Shown piece after piece: positions 4,846 to 27,117 of a stretch of 64,000 nucleotides of DNA. Source of the stretch: Poritiphilus flavus. Lineage in GTDB: Bacteria > Bacteroidota > Bacteroidia > Flavobacteriales > Flavobacteriaceae. Position 1 is the stretch's first letter. Each line of letters opens with the position of its first letter. The stretch lies in NCBI RefSeq assembly GCF_009901585.1, contig NZ_WXYO01000002.1, forward strand, positions 404,769 to 468,768, read 5' to 3'. Below the pieces are notes generated by a model, which saw nothing but the letters and a program-made list of their open reading frames with translations, was not told the DNA's origin and made no database searches. Position numbers and translations under genes: made by a program.

Positions 4846-4889
4846 TGGTTCATTCTGTATACAGTTTTATCTCTAATACGTATAAGGCA

Positions 4890-5060
4890 TTTTTCATTTT
4901 AAGCTCGGTAAGTTGACCTTTAGGATTGAGGGAAGTTTTTGTCAGGTCGTGCGCAGTATTTTGATCTATTGGTTCGATATAAGTTTGTGTCAAGTCGAGC
5001 GAGGTAATCTGACCCTTTAGATTAAGGTAAGTCCTTGTCAGGTCGAGCGCAGTCGAGACC
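4890..5060 (-). repeat. 48-bp tandem palindromic repeats 3' of the GIY-YIG gene
   Basis: Copies of the core GTCAGGTCGAGCGCAGT begin at 4941, 4989 and 5037, exactly 48 bp apart, with a more decayed copy near 4890. The copy at 5037-5060 is intact and ends in GAGACC directly against the stop codon of the nuclease gene. The unit forms an imperfect hairpin. Because 48 is a multiple of three the array stays open in one minus-strand frame (4850-5068) and would encode 16-residue repeats, but I see no sign that it is translated. Confidence 0.85.
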
Positions 5061-5381
5061 TCATTCATCTTCGGGCTTAAAATCCGAATGACTTACATTC
5101 CTGCACTCAGCTAAGGTCTGAAGCAGGTCAAAGTCCTCGTGAGCAAGGGCTTTTTTCTTCTGACTACTCCATTTTTTAAGCTTTTTCTCAAAAGAAATGG
5201 CTTGATCAATATTATTGAATTCCTGGCTAAATAGTAACGTAACAGGCCGGCGTTTATAAGTGAAACAGGACTGGTTTAGCCCGGCCTCATGTTCTTTAAG
5301 TCGACGGTTTATGTCATTCGTGACTCCTGTATAGGACAGACCATCTGCACATTCAAGGATATAGATGTAGTATTGCTTCAT
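5061..5381 (-). CDS. Small GIY-YIG nuclease-domain protein
   Basis: 106 residues. The N-terminus YYIYILECADGLSYTGVTND carries the motif as YIY-10-YTG, followed by INRRLKEHEAG with the catalytic arginine position, and ends with SFEKKLKKWSSQKKKAL, typical of the compact UvrC-like GIY-YIG proteins common in Bacteroidota. The fold is a single-domain endonuclease; no DNA-binding extension is visible. The ATG at 5381 is chosen because the frame upstream is made of repeat sequence. The gene is framed exactly by inverted copies of a palindromic repeat: one ends at its stop codon, the other starts 11 bp before its ATG. Its biological role is unknown; processing or spreading of these repeats is my inference. 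Confidence 0.85.
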   Translation of the reverse strand: MKQYYIYILECADGLSYTGVTNDINRRLKEHEAGLNQSCFTYKRRPVTLLFSQEFNNIDQAISFEKKLKKWSSQKKKALAHEDFDLLQTLAECRNVSHSDFKPEDE

Positions 5382-5392
5382 TATATTGATTA

Positions 5393-5547
5393 GGTCTCGA
5401 CTGCGCTCGACCTGACATGGCCAGAGCTGTTGTTTTATTTTGGGTCTCGACTGCGCTCGACCTGACATGGCCAGAGCTGTTGTTTTGTTTTGGGTCTCGA
5501 CTGCGCTCGACCTGACATGGCCTGGTGGACGCTCGACCTGACAATGG
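5393..5547 (+). repeat. 50-bp tandem palindromic repeats 5' of the GIY-YIG gene
   Basis: Three near-identical units begin at 5393, 5443 and 5493 (period 50) with the core GGTCTCGACTGCGCTCGACC followed by TGACATGGCC and a T-rich spacer. A fourth, truncated copy (GCTCGACCTGACAATGG) lies near 5530. These are inverted relative to the units at 4890-5060, so 5037-5060 and 5393-5416 form a perfect 24-bp inverted repeat around the nuclease gene. Confidence 0.88.
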
Positions 5548-15011: not shown

Positions 15012-15266
15012 GCCCTCCTTCGCTAAAGCTACGGAGGATGAAATCAGTTTGCAAATGACGGTAAACGGTGTCAGTTCGAGCGTCCGCCCGGCCAAGGCGT
15101 TCGGACGGGCAGTCGAGACCTAGCCGGTCGGTAGGCAGTGAACAGTAAACAGCCCTCCTTCGCTAAAGCTACGGAGGATGAAATCAGTGGGCAGTGAGCA
15201 GTAAACAGTAATCAGTGAACAGTAATCAGTGAACAGCCCTCCTTCGCTAAAGCTACGGAGGATGAA
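15012..15266. repeat. Hairpin repeats and CAGTGAACAGTAA units after murQ
   Basis: A 31-bp hairpin element (CCCTCCTTCGCTAAAGCTAC plus GGAGGATGAA) occurs at 15012, 15152 and 15236. Between copies lie short degenerate units of CAGTGAACAGTAAT. At about 15078-15121 is a member of the palindrome family seen beside the GIY-YIG gene (GTCAGTTCGAGCG ... GCAGTCGAGACC), split by a 26-bp self-complementary insert. No coding potential was seen. Confidence 0.8.
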
Positions 15267-15289
15267 TAAGTGAACAGTTGGCAGTGAAC

Positions 15290-15500
15290 AGTACTCCATC
15301 TAATTGTCTAGCAGTCTATCCATCTAATCATCCACCAGTCTTATCATCCAACCATCCAATCGTCTATCCATCTAATCGTCCATCAGTCTATTCATCTAAC
15401 CGTCCAACAATCTAATCATCTAATCATCCAACCGTCCACCAGTCTATCCGTCTAACCGTCCAACAATCTAATCATCCAACCGTCCATCAATCCAACTTCA
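15290..15500 (+). repeat. Low-complexity CATCTAATCGTCCA repeats
   Basis: About 200 bp of degenerate short units such as CCATCTAATC, CGTCCATCAGTC and CATCTAACCGTCC. The units vary in length and order, without the fixed repeat and spacer lengths of a CRISPR array. No gene is present between murQ and the dehydrogenase. Confidence 0.8.
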
Positions 15501-26573: not shown

Positions 26574-26680
26574 GTTTCAGGCAAATTTTTGGTAAAAAGA
26601 TATGATATCTTTATACAACTCTTTATTTTTGTCACCCTTTTGAAATGGATGGCCAGAGCCGTCAGTTTGAATCTGTAAAC

Positions 26681-27043
26681 CGGGATGTGGCCCCACGGCT
26701 GCGCTCGGGGCAGGCTCCGTCTGGTACCCAGACTGCTTATATTAGTACAGTTTGAGCTTCGGAGTATGAAATATTGAAATATCACAGTCTAAACTGTGAA
26801 TCGGGATGTGGCCCCACGGCTGCGCTCGGGGCAGGCTCCGTCTGGTACCCAGACTGCTTATATTATTACAGTTTGGGCTACGGAGTATGAAATAATGAAA
26901 TATCACAGTTGAAACTGTGAATCGGGATGTGGCCTCACGGCTGCGCTCGGGGCAGGCTCCGTCTGGTACCCAGACTGCTTATATTATTACAGTTTGGGCT
27001 ACGGAGTATGAAATAATGAAATATCACAGTTGAAACTGTGAAT
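26681..27043 (+). repeat. Three 121-bp tandem repeats carrying the tRNA-Pro 5' end
   Basis: Units begin at 26681, 26802 and 26923, exactly 121 bp apart, and the next period would begin at 27044, the first base of tRNA-Pro. Each unit opens with CGGGATGTGGC, the first 11 bases of the tRNA, then a 27-bp insert, then GTCTGGTA, which is also in the tRNA D-arm, then TACCCAGACTGC, an inverted version of the D-arm sequence. Each closes with CACAGTTGAAACTGTG or a near copy, a hairpin that also abuts the real tRNA. Units 2 and 3 are nearly identical and unit 1 is more diverged. Confidence 0.93.
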
Positions 27044-27117
27044 CGGGATGTGGCGCAGTCTGGTAGCGTACACGCATGGGGTGCGTGTGGTCGCTGGTTC
27101 GAATCCAGTCATCCCGA
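27044..27117 (+). tRNA. tRNA-Pro (anticodon GGG)
   Basis: A 74-base cloverleaf: acceptor stem CGGGATG/CATCCCG, anticodon stem CACGC/GCGTG with loop ATGGGGT (anticodon GGG at 27078-27080), T arm CTGGTTCGAATCCAG and discriminator A. It reads codons CCC and CCU. CCA is not encoded. A terminator follows, and the gene is immediately preceded by the 121-bp repeats. Confidence 0.95.

Follow-up and report, generated by a model that had tools for sequence, protein, structure and literature searches.

The window, a 64,000-nucleotide stretch of the Poritiphilus flavus genome, contains a small gene for a GIY-YIG nuclease which lies between a carboxyltransferase gene on one side and anmK on the other, and which is bracketed by short inverted repeats, here called type A (Table 1). 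A sequence-only reading of this DNA had described a perfect inverted palindromic repeat of 24 bp around the gene. The two copies are exact reverse complements, as stated, yet over 25 bp rather than 24, and in a longer 32-nt aligned pair they are 94% complementary. The tandem arrays claimed for both ends are present, composed of a 50-bp unit repeated 2.6 times with 98% matches on the start side (5393-5522) and of three degenerate 48-bp units on the stop side. The related copy placed near 15078-15121 is likewise real, consisting of TGTCAGTTCGAGCG at 15069-15082, a 27-nt insert and CAGTCGAGACC at 15110-15120; at three further loci (L090, L092, and L093), type A repeats are also split into halves by an insert. 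In the window, the 16-nt core of the repeat was found in four exact copies and one with three mismatches, compared with 0.13 expected when up to three mismatches are allowed. Other features of the window include a 72-aa open frame without a Pfam match that runs across the degenerate 48-bp array (4850-5068), short tandem arrays with periods of 14, 24, 8, 56, and 72 (the last four overlapping) beside the insert-bearing repeat (15182-15492), and a 121-bp unit present in 3.2 copies with 95% matches (26667-27054).

Table 1. Positions of the GIY-YIG gene and of the related repeats in the window.
Feature	Position	Strand	Remarks
GIY-YIG nuclease gene, 106 aa	5061-5381	-	PF01541, E 2.6e-18
Repeat 3' of the gene	5036-5060	+	TGTC tag outward (5036-5039); core 3 nt from stop codon
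Repeat 5' of the gene	5393-5417	-	GACA tag outward (5414-5417); exact reverse complement of 5036-5060
5' repeat, second copy of the tandem array	5443-5467	-	50-bp unit
5' repeat, third copy of the tandem array	5493-5517	-	partial fourth copy at 5530-5544
Degenerate 48-bp-unit array outside the 3' side repeat	4902-5053	+	two units 68% and 79% like the reference copy
Related repeat with insert	15069-15123	+	27-nt insert between halves

The window protein matches PF01541 above the cut-off and gives no match to PF01797, and no NCBIfam family was found for it. Six residues (Y7, Y17, G19, R27, H31, and E65) do not vary among 13 homologues, and the protein has the core together with the tyrosine, arginine, and glutamate that define the GIY-YIG superfamily; we take these conserved residues to have their usual catalytic roles here. 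The nearest solved sequences are the UPF0213 proteins BH0048 (1zg2, E 1.6e-15) and EF2693 (1ywl, E 1.6e-11), named hypothetical by their depositors. Two of the three homologues tested graze the NCBIfam model of group I intron endonucleases, far under its cut-off. Within the clade of type A genes, the protein is under purifying selection, with a median dN/dS of 0.11 (76 unsaturated pairs of 325).

In the 4.99-Mb genome of P. flavus the 16-nt core occurs 28 times, and the reversed pattern used as a control does not occur. PF01541 matches were found at eight places in this genome, and a type A repeat lies nearby at the window gene only, within surroundings of about 1.5 kb (less for one place). 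Calling the repeat palindromic is partly justified. A single type A unit folds no better than shuffled sequences (z 0.21 and -0.16), the best fold being a weak 5-bp stem, so that the term is weak for a lone copy, whereas an inverted pair forms a strong hairpin (z -8.87; one pair tested, in L094). A hairpin formed by a lone repeat was considered as the recognized structure and rejected, being weak for type A.

A first scan of genome contigs yielded 14 relatives of the window protein, two of which, from Maribacter arenosus (70% identity) and Kordia (59%), have the same repeat inverted around the gene. The other 12 are more distant and not of type A; TGTCA pointed outward on at least one side in 11 of them, as part of other repeat sequences, against 205 of 600 random intervals. 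At the threshold used, an inverted pair was absent in 10 of the 14 (L039-L046, L049, and L050). We then used an alignment of 13 homologues as a query and found a match in 202 of 249 genomes of the bacterial family to which P. flavus belongs. The window and the 60 top-scoring matches (rows 1-62 of the match list minus the window's own row and one row with a stop), the latter taken with up to 20 kb of surrounding DNA each, made up a set of 61 loci, which represents the best-scoring matches rather than a random sample.

An inverted repeat, called at a score of at least 14 (+1 for a match, -3 for a mismatch) in flanks of 200-260 bp, was found around the GIY-YIG gene in 33 of the 61 loci and was absent at this threshold in 28; no such repeat was found around any of 1220 random intervals of equal geometry drawn from these loci. 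Other open reading frames in these loci were flanked in this way in 5 of 910 cases (4 of 393 for small ones), and two of those five are themselves GIY-YIG cases, one being a second GIY-YIG gene and the other an open frame within a GIY-YIG pseudogene. Within 250 bp of the gene, the density of type A repeats is 66-fold higher than in the rest of the loci, and that of a second type, B, is 49-fold higher. The tags point predominantly away from the gene (57 outward and 8 inward for type A; 32 and 12 for type B). At least one outward type A repeat lies within 220 bp of the gene in 27 of the 61 loci, with both sides occupied in 16, and at these 27 loci the tag reads TGTC in 21 of 22 left repeats and GACA in all 21 right repeats. 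The stop codon is no more than 6 nt from the right core in 16 of 21 cases, which indicates a fixed junction between the gene and the right end across genera. Type A repeats also occur as pairs without the gene. Among 27 neighbors within 100 bp of each other (150 places listed), 22 are convergent, 2 divergent, and 3 tandem, and the bare pairs, spaced 30-73 bp start to start, are convergent as in the cassette formed by the gene and its flanking repeats.

For the two repeat types tested, the type of repeat follows the clade of the nuclease. On a protein tree of the 61 own-family loci, made by a quick method from few columns (L037, L048, L049, and L050 lie outside its protein set, and 13 rows without a motif label were not counted), label A (28 rows) requires a single change compared with a mean of 15.5 after shuffling (0/500 as low), and label B (17 rows) requires two compared with 14.3. 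Label C, with three changes in three rows, does not cluster. All labels taken jointly need 3 changes, compared with 16.8 after shuffling (0/200). In one group of the tree (L096, L098, L101, L105, L111, and L125), three members (L096, L101, and L111) show a repeat of TGTCATTC.GCG.. type, possibly a switch of cognate repeat.

The same association is seen at the scale of whole genomes. We defined a type A gene by an identity of 57% or more across 95 residues or more and the absence of a stop, which excludes G035, G077, G093, and G149. Type A repeats are present in all 30 genomes with such a gene (median 14.5, minimum 3), compared with 101 of the 219 without it (median 0), the reversed pattern giving two hits in total over the 249 genomes. 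The figure of 30 of 30 hinges on the cut-off, as type A repeats are missing from G035, whose gene falls below it (59% over 82 residues). For type B genes (at least 60% identity, including one copy with a stop, in G045), the exact repeat occurs in 21 of 26 genomes with the gene and in 38 of 223 without it; it is absent in five genomes with the gene, and one of those five genes has a stop. In a joint regression, the own-type effects were 1.90 (A) and 1.37 (B), reached in none of 5000 permutations each, compared with cross-type effects of 0.36 and 0.34 (418 and 139 of 5000), with permutations that ignore phylogeny. Single cross-type comparisons likewise gave positive, though weaker, associations (Mann-Whitney p 0.0011 and 0.00037). 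The expectation that genomes without the gene would lack the repeat therefore fails in its strict form. At least 10 type A repeats occur in 30 genomes without the defined gene, some of which have a more distant relative, and two of the repeat-rich genomes, G070 (29 copies) and G082 (18 copies), have no match to the family alignment. Such genomes suggest that the repeats persist after the gene is lost or accept other partners.

The sequence-only reading had also asked whether orthologous sites vary by the presence of the cassette, and they do. As the window's genome is the only one of its genus in the set, we sought polymorphism outside that genus. In 17 of the 61 loci the cassette lies inside one operon, in four different gaps (1, 8, 6, and 2 loci) and always co-oriented with the operon, whose genes keep one order, some being missing in some loci. 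Read on one locus, these genes encode 3-hydroxyanthranilate 3,4-dioxygenase, an aldehyde dehydrogenase, a short-chain dehydrogenase, a RidA-type (L-PSP) protein, an FAD-binding protein, and an O-methyltransferase, which we read as a kynurenine-type pathway. In other genomes the same gaps contain nothing, a bare pair (twice in L094 and once in L099), or a full cassette, and the bare pairs have the same unequal half-repeats as the cassette. No target-site duplication was found in 16 bare pairs (0-3 nt). At an intergenic site resolved in 9 of 12 Maribacter genomes (all but G253, G254, and G256), the cassette is present in G221 and G258, the site is empty in G029, G255, and G257, and G250 and G251 retain remnants. 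Truncated copies form tandem arrays in G249 and apparently in G252 (largely unread sequence). In the G249 array (L197, C5:6200-8800), the truncated cassettes repeat a piece resembling the start of the neighboring gene together with the left repeat, which looks like repeated re-copying. Several copies of the gene carry stops or truncations.

Variation of this kind extends to other phyla. In Azospirillum, the unit in the gap between sufB and sufC is absent in relatives (11 records without full coverage listed, 4 read), and of the four sites read by eye, three have no repeat and one (B510) has another palindrome. Four of the 11 Sphingobium records that cover both flanks lack the unit (all four read), and four of the seven filled ones are identical there. 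By eye, the empty site of TomTYG64 contains one repeat composed of the outer half of the left copy and the right copy, with tags at both ends, and that of TomTYG74 contains a less exact fused repeat; the other two sites have other palindromes. The fused repeat may be either a scar of excision or the site as it was before entry. Shinella relatives without the unit were also found (two read). Empty sites in general could be deletions.

These loci came from a protein search of plasmid records, in which 33 contained a homologue and 14 loci were read. Judged by eye, the gene lies between CGTC repeats in Azospirillum lipoferum, Rhizobium sp. CIAT894, two Shinella, Sphingobium, Novosphingobium, Neorhizobium, Neisseria gonorrhoeae, and Aeromonas caviae, TGTC repeats surround it in Planktothrix and Spirosoma, and CCTC-type repeats are found at the S. 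meliloti gene. No repeat was seen by eye close to the R. tumorigenes gene, and in Photobacterium there is one repeat, on one side only, 190 bp downstream of the gene. In a broad set of 28 loci, comprising the 14 plasmid loci and the 14 first-scan relatives, inverted repeats with a score of at least 14 were found in 13, compared with 10 of 560 random intervals, a null that also finds repeats. Tagged hairpins pointing outward on both sides occur in 28 of 88 distinct loci (16 from the own family and 12 from others; L037, being the same locus as L081, is omitted), compared with 4 of 890 random intervals, and hairpins pointing inward on both sides occur in 8 of 89 loci when that locus is counted twice. 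In searches for exact copies, one covering 10 and the other 11 of the 14 plasmid records, three of eight copies of one pattern on the Azospirillum plasmid and two of eight copies of another on the Shinella plasmid lay within 250 bp of the gene.

Further observations were made on these records. The GIY-YIG gene lies between sufB and sufC in Azospirillum (L212, as annotated) and apparently in Shinella PSBB067 (L224, by homology), which represents either a shared or a repeated insertion. The Photobacterium record NZ_CP073579.1 contains 81 exact CGTC repeats, many of them in arrays with a period of about 200 bp (e.g., 1123203-1127015). CP090106.1, NZ_CP119140.1, and NZ_AP026896.1 are labelled plasmids, are 2.2-4.9 Mb long, and are chromosome-like.

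Among known systems, the closest in organization are the REP-RAYT units (REPtrons) and REPINs. RAYT genes are flanked by two inverted GTAG REPs (Nunvar 2010, PMC2817692). The cassette similarly comprises a small nuclease gene between two inverted tagged repeats, with repeats dispersed singly and as inverted pairs (Nunvar 2010, PMC2817692; Di Nocera 2013, PMC3733652). It differs in the tag, which is TGTC or CGTC instead of GTAG, and in the enzyme, which belongs to the GIY-YIG family (PF01541) and not to the Y1/HUH transposases (PF01797). GIY-YIG enzymes hydrolyze DNA without a covalent intermediate, and the chemistry of this fold, unlike that of RAYT, is not expected to provide a covalent strand-transfer step. 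We therefore set the cassette apart from REP-RAYT units on the defining test of the enzyme, even though it would work like one.

The tags lead to a second known group, the CGTC-tagged REP superfamily, described from five bacterial phyla (Di Nocera, De Gregorio and Rocco 2013, PMC3733652). Its repeats are defined there by an unpaired CGTC, TGTC, or CCTC tag at one end, an 8-9 bp stem beginning with AT, and a mostly dimeric arrangement in opposite orientations, and they are presented as apparently lacking a dedicated transposase, with two hypotheses offered (PMC3733652). The repeats studied here share the unpaired CGTC/TGTC tag, the intergenic location, the multiple copies, and the opposite-orientation dimers (22 of 27 convergent for type A). 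Those flanking the gene in alphaproteobacteria and Neisseria look like repeats of the superfamily, and the stem of 8-9 bp starting with AT is present by eye in those of Azospirillum, Rhizobium CIAT894, and Neisseria. In contrast, type A repeats of the window lack the AT stem start and form a poor hairpin as single copies, so we regard type A as a TGTC-tagged relative rather than as a filed member of CGTC-1 to CGTC-4. The term GIY-YIG does not appear in the text of the superfamily paper (PMC3733652), five terms looked up in part of the survey of the GIY-YIG superfamily revealed no link to such repeats (PMC1564403), and the main text of a 2025 REP survey contains no word beginning with RAYT, transposase, or nuclease (PMC12306157). 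Among the matches listed in a search of the open-access literature (subscription papers and bioRxiv lie outside it), no title or abstract describes the pairing of a GIY-YIG gene with REP-type repeats.

The cassette of the window is real and part of a widespread pattern. We consider the gene and its flanking repeats very probably to constitute one unit, and the GIY-YIG protein is likely to act on the repeats. Our main reading, to which we assign a probability of roughly 0.7, is that this is a mobile unit whose GIY-YIG protein serves as the dedicated nuclease of a TGTC/CGTC-tagged REP family. The comparisons reported above established co-occurrence, orientation, pairing (for two types), purifying selection, and gain and loss; from these we infer binding, cutting at the tag, and the route of repair. 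The enrichment, the clade-specific pairing, and the presence or absence at orthologous sites give strong support to the original proposal, in which a GIY-YIG nuclease takes the role of the Y1 transposase in a unit of REP/RAYT type. A repeat independent of the gene, with neither enrichment near it nor polymorphism, had been named as the contrary outcome, and this is not what was observed.

The nuclease would recognize its own type of repeat, most likely as the hairpin or cruciform of an inverted pair, and would nick or cut at the tag, at the foot of the hairpin. That the tag is the site of cutting is a tentative proposal, about as easily wrong as right. Host repair would then copy or delete the segment between the two repeats. 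Because GIY-YIG enzymes act by hydrolysis with no covalent intermediate, any strand transfer would depend on host repair, in contrast to the Y1 transposases of RAYT systems. Under this scheme, the repeat-gene-repeat arrangement would be the autonomous form, the repeat-spacer-repeat arrangement, i.e., the bare inverted pair, a non-autonomous derivative, and a single copy a relic.

The strongest competitor, although we consider it unlikely, is homing, in which the repeats are independent and a GIY-YIG homing gene invades their pairs, cutting uninterrupted ones and being copied in by recombination, so that it exploits the repeats without spreading them. GIY-YIG is a classical homing fold, and the weak similarity of two of three homologues to the group I intron endonuclease model agrees with such an origin. 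The cassette resembles free-standing GIY-YIG homing endonuclease genes in fold, catalytic residues, and presence or absence at orthologous sites, and differs from them in that no intron or intein was found at the loci read and in that it is bracketed by short repeats which are multi-copy elsewhere. Homing would account for the bare pairs that share operon gaps and half-repeats with full cassettes, for the many genomes that hold repeats without the gene, and for the gene-free Sphingobium site of TomTYG64 (less exactly, TomTYG74), where the outer halves of the flanking repeats are fused. However, neither repeat nor gene is present at some sites filled in relatives (three of four in Azospirillum; G029, G255, and G257 in Maribacter), which means that, unless these sites are deletions, the cassette need not enter an existing pair. 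Moreover, the type of repeat tracks the nuclease clade and the copy number, and a pure exploiter would not require that.

The dedicated-nuclease reading is also preferred over one in which a RAYT or other HUH transposase moves the repeats and the GIY-YIG gene is merely carried along, which we regard as very improbable. Our search for Y1 genes covered the genome of P. flavus, whose one Y1 transposase gene (C1:54979-55533) has two type A repeats 0.2-0.6 kb upstream, within a 382-bp tandem duplication, and one Rhizobium cassette has an IS4-type transposase gene next to it. Yet that RAYT-like Y1 gene (L211, 1384-1938) is itself flanked, by eye, by other palindromes, of GCGGATTTGCAATCCG type, and for a gene that is merely carried, clade and repeat type would not go together. 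None of the tyrosine transposase genes named in the superfamily paper has CGTC repeats on its flanks (Di Nocera 2013, PMC3733652). A classical insertion sequence would share the terminal inverted repeats but not the lack of target-site duplication. Equally improbable is an ordinary housekeeping or repair nuclease, near which repeats would lie owing to the long intergenic spaces of small genes or as its terminators: the co-oriented position of the gene within an operon at 17 of the 61 loci and within the suf cluster of Azospirillum, the purifying selection, and the solved UPF0213 relatives named hypothetical fit it, but the rarity of flanking repeats at other small open reading frames (4/393 against 33/61), the joint presence or absence of gene and repeats, and the stops or truncations in several copies do not.

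We propose that the nuclease is the partner of CGTC/TGTC repeats, as RAYT transposases are of GTAG repeats. At its broadest, with about even odds, there may be a widespread class of mobile elements whose sole protein is a GIY-YIG nuclease of about 90-110 aa, whose ends are TGTC/CGTC REPs, and which would provide the missing engine of the CGTC REP superfamily in Alphaproteobacteria, Neisseria, Bacteroidota, Cyanobacteria, and others, relying on hydrolytic cutting and host repair and not on a transposase reaction. To our knowledge, this would be the first case of REP-like repeats served by a nuclease fold unrelated to RAYT and, if true, would mean that this kind of genomic parasite arose twice independently. 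The pairing, tested at genome scale for two types and read from individual loci for the CGTC types, points to a concrete candidate enzyme for CGTC repeats, and the question of their partner thereby becomes a simple biochemical and genetic test. As judged from the genomes compared, the gene and its tagged repeats seem to move jointly, as a single unit, in many bacteria. This suggests that the nuclease is the enzyme hitherto missing for a large group of bacterial repeats that have been described as partnerless.
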